This document shows, piece after piece, positions 5,760-12,540 of a stretch of 50,651 nt of DNA (position 1 is its first letter; each line of letters begins with the position of its first letter). The notes beneath the pieces are model-generated. The model ran no database searches. It was not told the DNA's origin and saw nothing but the letters and a program-made list of their open reading frames with translations. The stretch is from Verrucomicrobiota bacterium. GTDB lineage: Bacteria; Verrucomicrobiota; Verrucomicrobiia; Opitutales; UBA953. The stretch covers positions 1-50,651 of the forward strand of contig JAURJZ010000003.1 of the NCBI GenBank assembly GCA_030831965.1, written 5' to 3'. The translations under genes and the position numbers were made by a program.

Positions 5760-8327
5760 TCAGCGCGCGGGTAGCGCCCCCGGCTCGGTCGCGAGCTCCC
5801 GGCCGTCGGCGTCGACCACCAGGGCCTCGAGGCCCTCGCGACGCGCGAGGTCGAGGGCCTCGGCGGGGCCGAGCGACATCAGGGCGGTCGGCCAGCCGTC
5901 GGTCGGGCGGTCCCAGGCCCGGCGCACGCAGACCAGCCGTGGCACCGCTCCCTGCCGGGGTTCGCCTGTGCGCGGGTCGATCAGGTGGTGCGCCTGCCGG
6001 CCGTCCGCCAGCCGCCGGCTGGACCGATGGAGGGCGGAGGTCGCGAGGGCCGAGTCGCGCAGCTCGATGCGCCGAAGGACCCTGCCCGGCGCGGAGGGAT
6101 CCTCGATGCCGACCGTCCACGCGCCGCAGGCGAGGAGCTCGCCTCCGCACTCGAGGAGGAAGTCGCGATGACCCCTTGACCGAAGCAGCCTGGCCGCCCG
6201 GAGGTTGGCGTGGCCCTGCAGGAGCGCGCCGAGGTCGAGCTCGAGCTCGGGATGTGCCTTGGCGAGGGAGGGTCCCGCGGGGTCGAGGCTGAGCTTGCGC
6301 CAGCCCGTGCGCTCGCGGAGGCGGGCAAGCTCGTCCGCGGAGGGAGCCTTCGCCACCTCGCCGTCGGGACCGTAGCCCCAGGCCCGCGTCAGGGGACCGA
6401 GGGTGGGGTCGAAGCCGCCGTCCGTCGCCCGGCTGAGGGCCAGGGCATGGGCGAGCACCTCGGCGAGCCCGGGATCGATGGGCCGCGGCCCGGTTGTCCT
6501 CTCGCGGTTGAACCGGCTGGTGGCCGACTCCGCCTTCCAATGCGACAGGGCCAGCTCGGTGCCGGAGTAGGCCGCCGCGAGCTCGCGCTCGAGATCCTCC
6601 CTGCCCGTGATCGGACCGCGCACCTTGACCCGCCAGCTCGTGCCGAACGCGCGCCCCTCCCAGGTGACCGTCGCCGGGGGCTCGTCCGCGGGAGCCTTGC
6701 TCGCCATGGCCAGGGCGCCGGCAAGGATCAGGGCCAGCGCCGCCAGGTCCTTCCGGCTGAGCCGTCGCTCGTCCCCGGTCGTGCGGACGTAGCCAAGGAG
6801 GGCGCCGGTGGGGCATCCGTAGCGGCAGTAGGCCATCGGGACGAAGGGCGCGAGGGCCAGCCCGAGCGCGGCGAGGATGGCCGAGGCGAGCGCGGCCCCG
6901 CCCAGCACCCAGGCGTCGAAGGGTTCCAGCGCCGCAAGGTCGATGCCCGGCCAGGCCACGGCGGCCAGGAAGGCGGCGGCGAGGGTGACGTGGGGAACCG
7001 CGCGGAGGAGGCGGTCGGCGCGGGGCGCGACGGCGAGGCGAGGCGCCGGGATCCTCGCGAGCAGCGACTGGGCGGCGCCGTGCGGGCAGATTTGGTGACA
7101 GTAGACCTGCCTTCCGCTCAGCCAGGGAACAAGCAGGGCGACCGCGGCCAGCAGGGCCAGCGACCCGAGCTCGCCATGGTGTCGGGCATGCCCCGCCAAC
7201 TGCCCGAGCGAGAGCAGGTGTCCCGCCCAAAGGCCGAGACCGAGCACGAGCACAACCTGCCACGAGGTTCTCACCCAGGCCTTGCCGCGGCCGGGTGACA
7301 AGGCCAGCCCGACCGCGCCGGCGAGGATGGCGGCCGTGGCCAGGCCGCGCCAGCGATCCTCGGCCTTGCCCGCCTCGGTCGCGGTGGCCGCGAAGCGCCG
7401 GCGCAGGCCGTCGGCCACCGCGAAGCTGGTCTGGGTGGCGCCCGCCACGCCCTCGATGCCGGCGGCCTGGAGGTCCAGCCGCGACCATTCGGCCGGCGAC
7501 CAGCGCGCGAGCGAGGGCAGGAAGCCCGGGTCCTCGGTCACGCGCGCGACGTACTCGGGGGTGTCGTAGGAATCCCGGATGGAGACGGACCGCACCTTGG
7601 CGCCGTCGGGCGAGACGACGGCGAGGGCGTCCGTGGGCCCGGCATAACCCAGCACGCTGTCCGCCTGGGGGCTCGTCCGCACCAGGAAGCCGAGCGTGCG
7701 CCCCTGGGCGTCCAGCGCCCGGTGCCAGCCGACGCGCCCCGGGTCGGGCTCGAGCCGCGAGCAGCCGGCCAGTCCGGCGGCGACCGCCTCCGCGGGGGTC
7801 GGGGCGCGGGGGAAGCGGAGCGATCCCGTCCGGCCCGTGAGCCGCTTGCGCACGGACTCGACGATGGCGAGCGAGGTCAGGGTCGAGCCCGCCACGGCCT
7901 CGACCCGCGGGGGCTCGGGATTGGCCGGGCGCCAGCCGCGGAGGCTCTCGAGGAAGCGGCGGTCGCGCCGGACGTCGTCCACATGGTCGGGCGAGTCGGC
8001 GCTGTCGACGATGCGGAGGTCGGCGACGTCGCCCCGCGCGTCGAGGGCCACCCGCACGCGGGTGGGCCCGGAGTAGCCCACGATGTCGTCCGCATCCGGC
8101 CAGGTGACCCAGAGCTCGCCCAGGCGCTGGTTGAGCTCATCCCTCACCTCCCAGCCGCCCCGGTCGAGGGCGCTGAAGCCCGCGGCCTCGGGGAAGATGC
8201 CGCGCGCCTCCTCCAGCGTCGGCTCCCAGTCGGGTTCCGCCGCCTGGCGCGGCGCCGAGGACCATAGGATGAGGGCCGCCGCCGCCACGGCGCCGAGCCG
8301 CCAGCCCCGAACGGCCCATGCCCGCAT
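5760..8327 (-). CDS. Membrane flavoprotein fusion: two FMN-binding domains + CxxxCP membrane core + ApbE flavin transferase
   Basis: A likely extracytoplasmic electron-transfer protein. Positions below count from the upstream ATG at 8339 (859 aa); the ATG at 8327 (855 aa) is preferred because GAGG lies 4 bp before it. Order of parts: signal/anchor (about 12-30); FMN_bind domain 1 (60-165) with AGST at 150-153; FMN_bind domain 2 (185-310) with AGAT at 299-302, the threonines being candidate covalent FMN sites; several TM helices (about 330-545) with CHQICP (C414, C418) and CRYGCP (C505, C509), as in NosR/NapH/CcoG-type proteins; and an ApbE domain (560-859). The ApbE part has DLG at 702-704, HLIDPRTG, and D814/T818 as likely Mg2+ ligands. 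It lies 15 bp (3 bp from the upstream ATG) after a secreted FAD oxidoreductase gene. The physiological electron partner is unknown. Confidence 0.87.
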   Translation of the reverse strand: MRAWAVRGWRLGAVAAAALILWSSAPRQAAEPDWEPTLEEARGIFPEAAGFSALDRGGWEVRDELNQRLGELWVTWPDADDIVGYSGPTRVRVALDARGDVADLRIVDSADSPDHVDDVRRDRRFLESLRGWRPANPEPPRVEAVAGSTLTSLAIVESVRKRLTGRTGSLRFPRAPTPAEAVAAGLAGCSRLEPDPGRVGWHRALDAQGRTLGFLVRTSPQADSVLGYAGPTDALAVVSPDGAKVRSVSIRDSYDTPEYVARVTEDPGFLPSLARWSPAEWSRLDLQAAGIEGVAGATQTSFAVADGLRRRFAATATEAGKAEDRWRGLATAAILAGAVGLALSPGRGKAWVRTSWQVVLVLGLGLWAGHLLSLGQLAGHARHHGELGSLALLAAVALLVPWLSGRQVYCHQICPHGAAQSLLARIPAPRLAVAPRADRLLRAVPHVTLAAAFLAAVAWPGIDLAALEPFDAWVLGGAALASAILAALGLALAPFVPMAYCRYGCPTGALLGYVRTTGDERRLSRKDLAALALILAGALAMASKAPADEPPATVTWEGRAFGTSWRVKVRGPITGREDLERELAAAYSGTELALSHWKAESATSRFNRERTTGPRPIDPGLAEVLAHALALSRATDGGFDPTLGPLTRAWGYGPDGEVAKAPSADELARLRERTGWRKLSLDPAGPSLAKAHPELELDLGALLQGHANLRAARLLRSRGHRDFLLECGGELLACGAWTVGIEDPSAPGRVLRRIELRDSALATSALHRSSRRLADGRQAHHLIDPRTGEPRQGAVPRLVCVRRAWDRPTDGWPTALMSLGPAEALDLARREGLEALVVDADGRELATEPGALPAR

Positions 8328-8342
8328 GCCGCCTCGCATCCC

Positions 8343-10337
8343 TCAGTTGGGCTTCTTGGCGGGGGCGGGCGCCTTGGGCTTCGGGGGCGTGGCGGGGCGG
8401 TCGAGGTCGCGGTTGGTCGAGTGGCGCGGCGCCTTGGTCGGGTCGGCGATGGCGGCGTCGGCCACGAGCGGCTCGCGGAGCGAGGCCCGGCGCATGCGCC
8501 CGGGCTCGTTGAGCAGGCCGAGCAGCTCGGGAAGGTGGCGGTCGTGGACGCCGCGGGGATCGGTGCCGTGGAGGATCGCGAGGTAGGCGGCCTTGCCGAC
8601 CACCTCGCCCATCATGCCGCAGGTCCGCATGACGCGCACGGTGCCGAGGGCCTCGCGGGTGACGCTGATGTTGCGGCCCGCCATGAAGAGGTTGGGCACG
8701 TTGCGGGAGTAGAGGCAGCGGTAGGGCACGGGGTAGCCGTTGCGGCGGTCGATGTGGTGCCCGAAGATCGCGCGGGAGATGAAGGGGTTGTCCGGGGTCT
8801 TCTTGGCGAACTGCTCCCTCGGCACGTGCAGGTCGATGTCCCAGGTCGTCGGGATGCAGCCGTCGGGAAACTCGCGCTTGGCCAGGAAGTCGGGCAGCGC
8901 CAGCACGACGTCGCCGAGCAGCTGCTGGGTCTCGCGGGTGCCGCCCACGGGCGAGACCCAGCGGAGCTCGGCCCGCTCGGCCGCCAACCGCTGGGCGTCC
9001 AGGCGCGCCGCGGCGGCCGGATCGGCCGGCGCCGGTCCGGCGGGCATCGGCGCCTTGAGGGCGGAGAAGGCGCCGAAGACCGCCCGGAGGTTCCAGTCGC
9101 GGATGCGCTCAAGGTCCCGGATCGGGTGCAGGTCGTATCCGGATTCCCAGAACCACTCGCCCTTGTAGAAGGGCCGGTCGCCGTCCGCGCCCCTGCTCTT
9201 GGGCAGCCCGGGGAAGTCGCCCCGCTCGAGCTCGAGCGCCCAGGGCGTGGGCTGCCAGGCCGCGGGGCCGTCGGCCAGGGTGTAGTACCACATGTTGGAC
9301 ATGCCCATGCGCCCGGCGGGCGTCATCACGTGGTCCGCTCCCGCGGACACCCCCAGCGTGCCGTGGCCGGTGCAGTCGGCGAAGAGGCGGCCCCGGATCT
9401 CCCGCTCGCGCCCGGTTCGCACCTGCAGCAGCTTGACCGAGCGGATGCGGGGCCCGTCCTTGGTCACGCCCATCGCATAATGGCCGAGGAGGAGGGTCAG
9501 GTTGGGCTCGGCCTTGCAGACCGCCTCCTTGAGCGCGTCGCCGAAGGCGGCGGCGGGAGCCGGCGAGTCCTGGGCGCGGTCGGAGAACTCCTCGACGATC
9601 TCCCCGAGCCGGGGGTACTTGCCCCGAAGCGTCCCGCCCATCGCCCAGACCGCGATCTCCGAGCTGCCGTTGCCGCCCAGCACCTCGCGGTCCTGGATCA
9701 GGGCGACCTTCAGCGACTGCCGGGCGGCGGAGATGGCGGTGCCGAGTCCGGCGTAGCCGCCGCCGACCACGACGAGGTCGAATTCGCCGAGGTCCTCGGC
9801 CTTGTCGGAGGGATTGTTGCGGCGCCGTCGCTCCTCCGCGAGCTTGGCCGGCTCGTCGGGCGGGAGGTAGGAGGGGTCGGAGCTGAGGACGATGGCGTCG
9901 CAGCGGCCGTTGAAGCCCGTGAGGTCGCGCAGCGCGAGGCGGGCGGGCCCGGCGGGCAGGTCGACCTCGCCCGCGGGTTGCCAGCGCCAGTCGGCCCCGT
10001 TGGTGCCGAGGATGGCGCCGGTGGGCTTGCCGTTGACGTGCAGCTCGAAGCGGCCCGGGTTGCCGGCGGCTCCCCAGGGAGCCACCCAGTCCCGGGTGCG
10101 AACCCAGGCCCGGAAGCGTCCGGCCTTGGCGATCTGGACGCTGCCGCTCGCGTCGGCCACGGGTTTGCCCAGGCCATGGGCCATGAGGTAGGGGGACCCG
10201 ACGGAGAGGGTGGGTTGGGTGTCGGTGAACCAGCCGCCGCGGTCGGCCAGCGCCTCGGCCTCGACCCAGGCGGTCTCGGCTTGGGCGCAGGCCGAGACGG
10301 CGAGGAGGAGGGACAGGGCGGGGAGGCGGTGTCGCAT
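8343..10337 (-). CDS. Secreted FAD-dependent oxidoreductase
   Basis: 664 residues with a cleavable signal peptide (MRHRLPALSLLLAVSACAQA); the cysteine at 17 could also mark a lipoprotein. Residues about 22-155 form a beta-rich module resembling a carbohydrate-binding or concanavalin-like domain. From 187 the FAD fold begins with DLVVVGGGYAG, followed by ALIQDREVLGGNGSSE, typical of the FAD-dependent oxidoreductase family that includes PF12831 members. Such proteins are common in polysaccharide-degrading Verrucomicrobia and Planctomycetes, but their substrates are mostly unknown. It is the first gene of an apparent operon with the ApbE-fusion flavoprotein, so it may pass electrons to that membrane protein; that is inference. 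Confidence 0.85.
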   Translation of the reverse strand: MRHRLPALSLLLAVSACAQAETAWVEAEALADRGGWFTDTQPTLSVGSPYLMAHGLGKPVADASGSVQIAKAGRFRAWVRTRDWVAPWGAAGNPGRFELHVNGKPTGAILGTNGADWRWQPAGEVDLPAGPARLALRDLTGFNGRCDAIVLSSDPSYLPPDEPAKLAEERRRRNNPSDKAEDLGEFDLVVVGGGYAGLGTAISAARQSLKVALIQDREVLGGNGSSEIAVWAMGGTLRGKYPRLGEIVEEFSDRAQDSPAPAAAFGDALKEAVCKAEPNLTLLLGHYAMGVTKDGPRIRSVKLLQVRTGREREIRGRLFADCTGHGTLGVSAGADHVMTPAGRMGMSNMWYYTLADGPAAWQPTPWALELERGDFPGLPKSRGADGDRPFYKGEWFWESGYDLHPIRDLERIRDWNLRAVFGAFSALKAPMPAGPAPADPAAAARLDAQRLAAERAELRWVSPVGGTRETQQLLGDVVLALPDFLAKREFPDGCIPTTWDIDLHVPREQFAKKTPDNPFISRAIFGHHIDRRNGYPVPYRCLYSRNVPNLFMAGRNISVTREALGTVRVMRTCGMMGEVVGKAAYLAILHGTDPRGVHDRHLPELLGLLNEPGRMRRASLREPLVADAAIADPTKAPRHSTNRDLDRPATPPKPKAPAPAKKPN

Positions 10338-10428: not shown

Positions 10429-10506
10429 CGGGCTGTAGCGCAGTCTGGCTAGCGCACTTGCTTAGGGTGCAAGGGGTCGTGGGTTCAAATCCCCCCAGCC
10501 CGACCA
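10429..10506 (+). tRNA. tRNA-Pro with anticodon AGG
   Basis: A full cloverleaf can be drawn. The acceptor stem pairs CGGGCTG (10429-10435) with CAGCCCG (10496-10502); A at 10503 is the discriminator, and CCA is encoded at 10504-10506. The D arm pairs GCGC with GCGC. The anticodon stem pairs CTTGC with GCAAG around the loop TTAGGGT, so the anticodon is AGG (10464-10466) with G37, as in proline tRNAs. The T loop is TTCAAAT. Overall sequence closely resembles bacterial tRNA-Pro. Two oddities: A at position 34, and a U-C mismatch in the T stem (10480 with 10494). Confidence 0.93.
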
Positions 10507-10569
10507 GCGGAGGCCCCCGGGAAGTTCCCCTTGGAACCGCCCCGGGGATGCCTTAGGGGATGTTTTCCC

Positions 10570-12540
10570 ATGCGATGCCTGCTGGCCGCCCTCCTGTTCC
10601 TCGGGTCCTCCCTCGGCGCCGACCTTCCCCGTTTCGGCGACGAGTCCGTCAACCGGTTCGTGGCCGAGGCGGACGCCGCGGCGCGGCGCGGCGCGCCCCT
10701 GACGCCGGAATTCTGGTCCTGGGTCGACCGCCATCCCGAGGTCCGCGCGGGTCTGCTCTTCGCGCGCCATCCCATGCCGGCCGTTCACGCGGCCAACCTC
10801 GACCTGCTCCGTCGTTCCGTGACCCCGCAGCAGGCGGATCGCTACGCCCACCTTTTGCTCGCGGTCGCAGTCAACGGCGACCAGCCGCTCCGCGCCGAGG
10901 CCGAGCAGGCGCCCGCCAGCTGGCCCGAGCCGGTGACCAGGGTGGCGGCGTGGATGCGCGCCTCGGGCACGAGCTATCTCCAGGCGATGGGGGACGCCGC
11001 CGCCGCGCTCGGCGCCGCGGGTGTCCCCGCCGCCGAGGCCGCGAGGGATCGGGGATTCTGGACGAAGGTGGCCCATGCCTCGGGCGCTTACCCGCCGCGG
11101 CTGGCGGCGTCGGTGCCCGCGCACATCCGCTGGTTGGTCGACCGCCTCGATGCGCCCGCGCCCGAGGGCGGCAAGCAGCCCTGGCCGGCCTTCCCGATGG
11201 CCAAGGCTCCCTGGCCCCTGCTGACCTGGTTCCGCGACGTGCCCCCGGAGCGTGAGCGCGACTGGGTCTGGGACTATTACTGGGGCAAGCTGCCCGGCCA
11301 ATCCAAGTCGGGCATCATCGGTTACGGGCGCTACTCCTGGGACTACGACCGGGTCCCGGCGGTGAAGCACAAGGCGAGCGCCTGGCATCCCTCCTCGCTG
11401 CCTCGCATCTGGGAGGACGGCGGGGTGTGCGGCCGCCTCTCCACCATGGGCGACACCTTCCGCCGCACGCTCGGGATTCCCGCGCGCGGGGCGGGGCAGC
11501 CCGGGCACCGCGCCTTCGTCAGCTACGGCTGGGATGCCAAGCGGGGCCTCTGGACCTTCGGCGTCGGCCAGAGCATCGCCGGCATCGAGGTGACGACCAG
11601 CTCGCCCGAGCTCGCCCAGCCCGCCGAGTTTCTCCGCAACGGAGCGGTCAATTGCCAGGCGCTGGTCGGCGCGATGAACCTCGGGCTGGAGCGCTGGACC
11701 CGGGCCCGCATCCTGGCTTGGCACGCGCAGGAGCTGCCCGTCGCGGCAAGGGACCGCGCGCGGCGCGACGCCCTTGCCCTGAATCCCTACGACCTCGGCC
11801 TGTGGCGCCAGTCGGCCGAGGCCGCCCCGGACGTCCCGGCCCTCGCCCGGGTGCTGGCCGAGATGGACGCCCTGCTGGTCAATCCCAACGGCCGGCTCGA
11901 GGAGGCCGAGCGCCTCTCCGCCTCGACCGATTTCGCGACGCTCGGCGGCGGCGACCCCAAGGCCCGCTCCGATGTCGGCAACTCGGTCGCCCGCGTGGCC
12001 GGCGACGCGCTCCTGCGCCAAGGCGTCGAACGCCTGCTCGCCGCCGGGGGCTCGCGGGCGGAATTGCGCTCGATGGTCCGGGCGGAGATTGGCCGCCGTG
12101 CCGCCCTCGGGCTGCCCCACGGCTCCCTGGTGACCGTCCAGCTGCTCACCCGGCTCGACCTCCTTGCCGACGGCGCGGCGCCCGTGCTCGCCTCGGTCGA
12201 GTCGGGCGTTCGCGCGGCCGACGCGCTCAAGGGCAAGGCCCGCGAGCGCGCGCTTTCCGACCTCGCCCTGCGCCTCGCCGTCCTGCGCGAGGCGGACCCC
12301 GCCCAGGTGGAGGCGTGGTCCTCCCGCATCATCGCCTCCCTCGCCGGCCCGTCGCGCTGGACCTTGGACAAGGACGGCAAGCCGGTCCCGGACAAGCTGC
12401 TCGCCGACCTGCACGGCCTGCGCGCGCATGCCCTGCGCAAGCTCGGTCCCCCCGCGAAAGGCAAGATCGCCTTGGCCCTGGCCCAGTTCGAGGAGGGCAG
12501 GCCCCGGCCGGCCGCGGTGCCCGCCTCCCCGTCGCGCTGA
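10570..12540 (+). CDS. Secreted transglutaminase-like protein
   Basis: 656 residues with a signal peptide (MRCLLAALLFLGSSLGA). The ATG at 10570 is chosen because it starts the signal peptide; an upstream in-frame start would add a non-hydrophobic stretch close to the tRNA. Around residues 280-325 is a transglutaminase/cysteine-protease-like core: GGVCGRLSTMGDTFRRTLGIPARG supplies C287, PGHRAFVSYG supplies H313, and an Asp (WD, about 322) follows. The large N- and C-terminal parts are helical and of no family I recognise. Expected location is periplasm or outside the cell. Enzymatic activity is inferred from the Cys/His spacing only. Confidence 0.66.
   Translation: MRCLLAALLFLGSSLGADLPRFGDESVNRFVAEADAAARRGAPLTPEFWSWVDRHPEVRAGLLFARHPMPAVHAANLDLLRRSVTPQQADRYAHLLLAVAVNGDQPLRAEAEQAPASWPEPVTRVAAWMRASGTSYLQAMGDAAAALGAAGVPAAEAARDRGFWTKVAHASGAYPPRLAASVPAHIRWLVDRLDAPAPEGGKQPWPAFPMAKAPWPLLTWFRDVPPERERDWVWDYYWGKLPGQSKSGIIGYGRYSWDYDRVPAVKHKASAWHPSSLPRIWEDGGVCGRLSTMGDTFRRTLGIPARGAGQPGHRAFVSYGWDAKRGLWTFGVGQSIAGIEVTTSSPELAQPAEFLRNGAVNCQALVGAMNLGLERWTRARILAWHAQELPVAARDRARRDALALNPYDLGLWRQSAEAAPDVPALARVLAEMDALLVNPNGRLEEAERLSASTDFATLGGGDPKARSDVGNSVARVAGDALLRQGVERLLAAGGSRAELRSMVRAEIGRRAALGLPHGSLVTVQLLTRLDLLADGAAPVLASVESGVRAADALKGKARERALSDLALRLAVLREADPAQVEAWSSRIIASLAGPSRWTLDKDGKPVPDKLLADLHGLRAHALRKLGPPAKGKIALALAQFEEGRPRPAAVPASPSR

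Follow-up and report, generated by a model that had tools for sequence, protein, structure and literature searches.

Membrane proteins of the NapH-like type that carry an N-terminal FMN-binding domain form a described class, for which Meheust et al. 2021 counted 1926 gene clusters (PMC8238504). In the available part of that survey, such systems combine a Fer4_5/NapH-like membrane protein and its N-terminal extracytosolic FMN_bind domain with a nearby ApbE, and the partners named are nirS, exaA, nosZ and pceA, with no PF12831 enzyme among them. PceC/RdhC spans the membrane with six helices and carries two CX3CP motifs but no further ferredoxin motifs; its single FMN domain lies on the outer face, and its partner is a dehalogenase (PMC5928378). 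NosR joins FMN_bind to a CX3CP membrane module, bears two C-terminal 4Fe-4S motifs (PMC5928378) and serves NosZ. The cofactor bound by CxxxCP in this protein class is not settled (PMC5928378). Flavin transferases joined to their own substrates are known as well, from bacterial ApbE-DUF2271 proteins (PMC8238504) and from the trypanosomatid fumarate reductase FRDg, a redox protein flavinylated by the FMN transferase attached to it (PMC8065229, PMC12052999).

The window analysed here is a stretch of 50,651 nucleotides from the small genome of a Verrucomicrobiota bacterium of the order Opitutales. It contains a gene pair in which a secreted FAD-dependent oxidoreductase precedes a single protein made of two FMN_bind domains, a NapH-like membrane core and ApbE (Table 1). 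With a probability of roughly 60%, we propose that the two genes encode a periplasmic respiratory system, in which a self-flavinylating conduit would pass electrons from a saccharide-oxidizing FAD enzyme to quinone.

The fusion protein differs from the NapH-like systems of the survey, as far as its available part describes them, in its two FMN_bind domains, its C-terminally fused ApbE and its PF12831 partner. It shares helix number, an outer-face FMN domain, both CX3CP motifs and the lack of extra ferredoxin motifs with PceC/RdhC, but has a second FMN domain and an ApbE domain, and its partner is a PF12831 FAD_oxidored rather than a reductive dehalogenase. Set against the RdhC/PceC pattern [ST]G[AS]TX[ST], its acceptor motifs AGSTLT and AGATQT each start with A. 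We rejected membership in NosR because the NCBIfam profile matched residues 399-515 below the cut-off (E=1.6e-6, 26.7 bits versus 1000) and the ferredoxin motifs are missing: sequence and Pfam place no ferredoxin domain after the core, where ApbE comes next, and NosZ is not the partner. Of the 4Fe-4S/NosR-like core that the sequence-only reading had proposed, Fer4_5 and the two CxxxCP motifs stand, whereas the extra 4Fe-4S motifs of NosR are absent and the core is NapH/PceC-like. Fer4_5, six hydropathy peaks and extracytosolic FMN_bind domains thus assign the protein, as judged from its sequence, to the NapH-like flavinylated class, with covalent FMN predicted.

ApbE-DUF2271 proteins differ in their substrate domain and in having no NapH-like membrane core; FRDg is eukaryotic and glycosomal, with an N-terminal ApbE and no membrane core. 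ApbE-DUF2271 fusions were seen in Chthoniobacter flavus (L120:1983-4079), the Co_bin.47 bacterium (L121:2064-3623) and Thalassoglobus neptunius (L124:1571-3172), and a 659-aa frame (L123:2386-4365) joins ApbE to a formylglycine-generating-type FGE-sulfatase domain. No use of the words "fused" or "fusion" was found in the main survey papers outside the supplementary tables of PMC8238504, which could list such clusters, and the FAD enzyme was not found as a partner of FMN-binding systems of these phyla in the literature searched. The three-in-one fusion and its conserved FAD partner therefore appear undescribed, while the class and the joining of ApbE to a substrate are already known.

Domains, predicted acceptor sites and predicted topology of the fusion protein

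The proposal that FMN_bind domains, a CxxxCP core and ApbE lie in one chain was borne out: the gene is one uninterrupted frame with 0 stops, and Pfam finds all three parts above their cut-offs. ApbE matches with E=1.5e-57 and 195.6 bits (cut-off 25.6), and FMN_bind and Fer4_5 (PF12801) each match two stretches, best at residues 88-166 (E=1.4e-14) and 395-432 (E=1.4e-11). A lack of FMN_bind or ApbE similarity, named beforehand as a refuting outcome, can be set aside, since both lie far over their cut-offs. AGST (150-153), AGAT (299-302), CHQICP (414-419), CRYGCP (505-510), D814 and T818 all occur where they had been claimed. The full chain was modeled by AlphaFold with a mean pLDDT of 90.5 and a pTM of 0.69; in this model the ApbE part matches the solved ApbE 6nxi (Foldseek, E=2.5e-21, TMt 0.86), and a weak structural match to RnfG (E=0.01) is expected for FMN_bind.

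Table 1. Features of the gene pair in the window (aa, residue numbers of the encoded protein)
Feature	Position	Strand	Basis
Secreted FAD-dependent oxidoreductase (PF12831), 664 aa, first gene of the pair	8343..10337	-	Pfam; conserved partner
N-terminal golvesin/CBM-like beta domain of the FAD enzyme, aa 24-156 (candidate)	9870..10268	-	Homologous segments match Golvesin_C, window segment without match; fold hits
FAD_oxidored catalytic domain, aa 187-602	8532..9779	-	Pfam E=1.5e-61
Fusion gene, FMN_bind x2 + NapH-like membrane core + ApbE, 859 aa	5760..8339	-	Pfam; AlphaFold pLDDT 90.5
N-terminal signal/anchor helix, aa 5-28	8256..8327	-	Helix in model; sequence
FMN_bind domain 1, aa 88-166, acceptor T153	7842..8078	-	Pfam; T153 95/96
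T153 codon, predicted FMN attachment site 1, motif EAVAGST	7881..7883	-	Conservation; motif rule PMC12052999
FMN_bind domain 2, acceptor T302	7401..7649	-	Profile search; GAT 96/96
T302 codon, predicted FMN attachment site 2, motif EGVAGAT	7434..7436	-	Conservation
NapH-like six-helix membrane core, aa 332-550	6690..7346	-	Six hydropathy peaks, positive-inside pattern, Fer4_5; NosR/NapH profile matches below cut-off
First CxxxCP (CHQICP, aa 414-419), predicted cytoplasmic side	7083..7100	-	Cysteines 96/96; topology
Second CxxxCP (CRYGCP, aa 505-510), predicted cytoplasmic side	6810..6827	-	Cysteines 95/96; topology
ApbE FMN-transferase domain, aa 565-840, predicted extracytoplasmic	5820..6647	-	Pfam, alignment, Foldseek to 6nxi
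S768, predicted Ser-His-Asp triad	6036..6038	-	31/35 conserved; triad per PMC12052999
H785, predicted general base, V. cholerae His257 equivalent	5985..5987	-	31/31; alignments; PMC12052999
D814, triad / metal site (predicted)	5898..5900	-	34/35; PMC12052999

The predicted acceptor sites are conserved among the homologues, T153 in 95 of 96 and G300-A301-T302 in all 96, as are the cysteines of the first (96/96) and second (95/96) CxxxC. Both acceptor motifs lie slightly off the flavinylation consensus D-x-x-[ST]-G-A-[ST] (PMC12052999), reading E-A-V-A-G-S-T and E-G-V-A-G-A-T, with E for D and A for S/T. The FMN_bind domains sit between the N-terminal signal/anchor and the first core helix, and six hydropathy peaks follow them. 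Core loops 351-361, 410-452 and 501-531 are positive, the last two containing the CxxxCP motifs, and loops 381-390 and 472-481 are neutral or negative; by the positive-inside rule, this alternation predicts that both CxxxCP motifs face the cytoplasm and that both FMN_bind domains and ApbE lie outside.

The ApbE domain and its predicted targets

Alignment to the solved ApbE structures from Salmonella and E. coli covers the whole ApbE part, whose sequence carries the putative Ser-His-Asp triad (S768, H785, D814) that is described for ApbE of V. cholerae and FmnB of L. monocytogenes (PMC12052999). In the ApbE alignment, H785 is conserved in 31 of 31 sequences, D814 in 34 of 35, and S768 and T818 in 31 of 35 each. 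The sequence-only reading had correctly noted QGH where many relatives have KGY. We rejected this as a sign of inactivity: Q708 aligns with E169 of E. coli ApbE, which is active, and with K165 of T. pallidum ApbE (PMC4767422), and position 708 varies among K, Q, E and P within this family.

Departures from relatives at A769, H771, H710 and P817, positions that are otherwise conserved, could indicate that the domain is degenerate and inactive, a relic or scaffold, and that the FMN_bind domains receive their FMN from another ApbE; the window genome (on contig C7) and the sister genomes searched do have a second ApbE-like sequence, which in the window genome is divergent. We consider this unlikely. 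S768, H785, D814, T818, N611 and D644 are all retained, the domain scores 195.6 bits and is kept in 33/33 full-length fusions, whereas the second sequence is a weak match (40.7 bits, a 287-aa frame) whose relative in sister genome G006 has, by eye, no evident signal peptide.

That the protein is self-contained, as had been suggested, is supported at the level of whole genomes. The sole FMN_bind matches in the window genome are the two in the fusion protein, and in five sister genomes (G006, G010, G013, G016 and G042) FMN_bind likewise occurs only within the fusion, two per genome. The fused ApbE is thus without another recognized target in these genomes within FMN_bind, the substrate family searched. 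NqrB/RnfD (PF03116) has no match in the window genome, so we rejected service to Nqr/Rnf there; across the window genome and five sister genomes with the fusion it is absent or below the cut-off.

Recurrence and origin of the fusion

The window genome is a fragmented draft of 96 contigs, a setting in which a fusion might arise from an assembly or frameshift error. We give this explanation practically no weight, since the fusion recurs unbroken in 32 further full-length homologues, so the frameshift that had been named as a possible refutation is not borne out. Among 95 related genomes searched, full-length fusions of 42-49% identity occur in a sister genus of the same family, and a scan of genome contigs yielded further homologues in Verrucomicrobiota and Planctomycetota. 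A survey of three-part fusions, which the sequence-only reading had called for, counted 33 full-length open frames of 841-922 aa, the window included: 24 genomes of the window's family and nine further loci, among them Verrucomicrobiaceae and one contig labelled Planctomycetaceae (two of the fusions, L037 and L045, belong to one genome). An extra fusion of 801 aa in G337 stands outside this count, and an apparent one in G320 (reported open frame 1081) was rejected, being two adjacent genes. The fusion protein is absent from the five same-genus genomes searched, which are 71-90% complete, so its distribution is patchy.

At unfused loci, a separate ApbE gene lies directly behind the core, often overlapping it. 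One planctomycete group has ApbE about 6 kb upstream of the core, and where the fetched stretch held no ApbE, one was found elsewhere in each of the 18 such genomes searched. The fused and unfused states are separated by one change on the trees of the core, for which the simplest history would be a single fusion of an adjacent gene pair. Where the Verrucomicrobiaceae fusions (L036, L037 and L045) branch inside the fused group has weak support (90/53).

Other core architectures were also seen. Short cores of about 425 aa, seemingly with one FMN_bind region and with the FAD enzyme still upstream, occur at L095:10016-11287 of Chthoniobacter flavus, a cultured relative, and at L097:9989-11266, and similar short frames in G458, G479, G562, G591 and G608. 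The planctomycete loci L052, L055, L057, L065 and L070 have a longer core of about 740-770 aa, and their ApbE gene lies some 6 kb upstream, ahead of the gene for the FAD enzyme; the core extension of L055 has a PGPGW match. The core of L032, from a contig labelled Akkermansia muciniphila, groups with Chthoniobacteraceae sequences, and the label is probably wrong.

The FAD oxidoreductase partner and the proposed electron path

A secreted FAD oxidoreductase upstream in the same operon was part of the sequence-only reading, and it is there: the gene, with a Sec-type signal and a PF12831 FAD_oxidored match of 209.4 bits (cut-off 27), directly precedes the fusion gene with a 3-nt gap. Its conservation beside the core, posed as a question at the time, holds across two phyla. 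The FAD enzyme lies directly upstream of the core in 68 of the 93 loci where the sequence reaches far enough; the two genes usually overlap by 4 nt or are separated by 3 nt. It is more conserved than the core (mean column identity 59% over 38 homologues). Where it was not adjacent or not visible, a homologue was found elsewhere in 25 of 25 such genomes searched: 23 are strong matches, another is partial (51% identity) and the last is weak (38%). Among 95 related genomes, a close homologue is present in 29/29 with the core versus 5/66 without it (Fisher, p=1e-19), and among 199 Planctomycetota genomes the full-length enzyme is present in 12/12 versus 1/187 (p=2e-18), although both p-values overstate independence because the genomes compared are related. 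The Planctomycetota positives score above 1100 bits; thresholds were set after the scores had been seen, with a wide gap between 1100 and 864 bits. In that phylum the two genes are neighbors in 8 of the 12 genomes with the core and far apart in the other 4. The FAD oxidoreductase is a real partner of the core.

Clustering of flanking genes gave no conserved neighbor of the core beyond the FAD enzyme and ApbE. A sulfatase cluster (20 loci) was rejected as a third one, as its members occur on either strand and at widely varying distances. The next gene downstream of the fusion in the window, with the same orientation, encodes a photolyase-related protein (DPRP, PF04244; 4035-5744) that is not conserved there at other loci. 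The 669-aa product of 10531-12540 matches nothing in Pfam or NCBIfam; the antisense alternative to this frame, 10462-12429, overlaps tRNA-Pro (10429-10506).

Flavinylated systems function elsewhere in iron assimilation and extracellular electron transfer (PMC8238504), and the pair might accordingly be thought to carry out metal redox or envelope redox repair rather than respiration, with the FAD enzyme as an operon bystander. Co-occurrence of this enzyme with the core survives separation of the genes, a pattern that a bystander would not give, and no other gene is conserved beside the core, the sulfatases being scattered over both strands; we judge such a role very unlikely.

Several clues bear on the substrate. 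A C-terminal domain resembling Golvesin_C is found in most homologues of the FAD enzyme but lost in the window and sister genomes, the window enzyme ending in a Pro/Ala/Lys-rich tail. At the N-terminus, Golvesin_C is matched by nine of ten homologous segments (best E=2.2e-6), and CBM_35 weakly; the window enzyme's own segment matches neither, and the N-terminal domain has no significant match among PDB sequences. The CBM35-containing mannanase 3zm8 is among the fold matches of the enzyme. We rejected the catalytic fold as a guide to the substrate, its matches being generic FAD enzymes with low TM-scores, among them oxidases and also the reductases flavocytochrome c3 and fumarate reductase. In G006, Pfam identifies gluconolactonase-like (SGL), zinc dehydrogenase, SDR and GntP permease genes convergent with the fusion (L114:711-4920), and genes resembling them by appearance occur in G013 (L117). 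Together, the golvesin/CBM-like domains and the G006 neighbors point weakly to a carbohydrate substrate.

In our working model, the fusion protein would be an inner-membrane electron conduit that flavinylates itself. ApbE, on the outer face, would use periplasmic FAD to place FMN on T153 and T302 in the two FMN_bind domains of the same protein, either within one chain or from one copy to another. The substrate of the secreted FAD oxidoreductase is probably a sugar or saccharide; this enzyme would contact the fusion protein and give electrons to its FMNs, from which the NapH-like core, through its two predicted cytoplasmic-face CxxxCP sites, would deliver them to the quinone pool and onward to an oxidase.

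The direction of electron flow is the least certain step of this mechanism. The same complex could run in reverse, from quinol through the NapH-like core and the FMNs to the FAD enzyme, and reduce an extracytoplasmic substrate in the pattern of PceC/NosR and of fumarate- or urocanate-reductase-type systems. The characterized NapH-like relatives NosR and PceC do feed reductases (PMC8238504, PMC5928378), and flavocytochrome c3 fumarate reductase is among the best fold matches of the FAD enzyme. However, PMC8238504 also places NapH-like systems beside the alcohol oxidase gene exaA, the golvesin/CBM-like domains and the lactonase/GntP neighborhood of G006 fit sugar oxidation better, and genomes hosting the fusion encode haem-copper oxidase subunit I, which favors substrate oxidation with quinone reduction, opposite to NosR and PceC. 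We regard reverse flow as possible but doubtful, and retain saccharide oxidation coupled to quinone reduction as the preferred reading. Of the new extracytoplasmic electron path suggested by the sequence-only reading, the pairing is upheld in two phyla; the class of the core is already described, and the path itself is one that we infer.

The fusion offers a clean single-chain case for the question of whether ApbE acts in cis, as it holds the only recognizable FMN_bind domains of those genomes. The FAD enzyme is also a candidate for the catalytic partner in some of the NapH-like flavinylated systems that still lack an assigned reaction (PMC8238504). Since it accompanies the core even in genomes where their genes lie at distant sites, the substrate of the whole system should be findable through one secreted protein. 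We tentatively suggest, at a confidence clearly short of even, that the pair represents a respiratory dehydrogenase of two genes not described before, with a patchy occurrence in Verrucomicrobiota and Planctomycetota, in which a secreted saccharide-oxidizing FAD enzyme would pass electrons through covalent FMNs and a NapH-like core to menaquinone, and of which one lineage would have absorbed its own flavin transferase, needing no separate assembly factor. The pair is probably an overlooked route by which electrons from outside the membrane are fed into respiration and, if it oxidizes saccharides, would supply respiration in a way so far missed in two phyla with many polysaccharide degraders.
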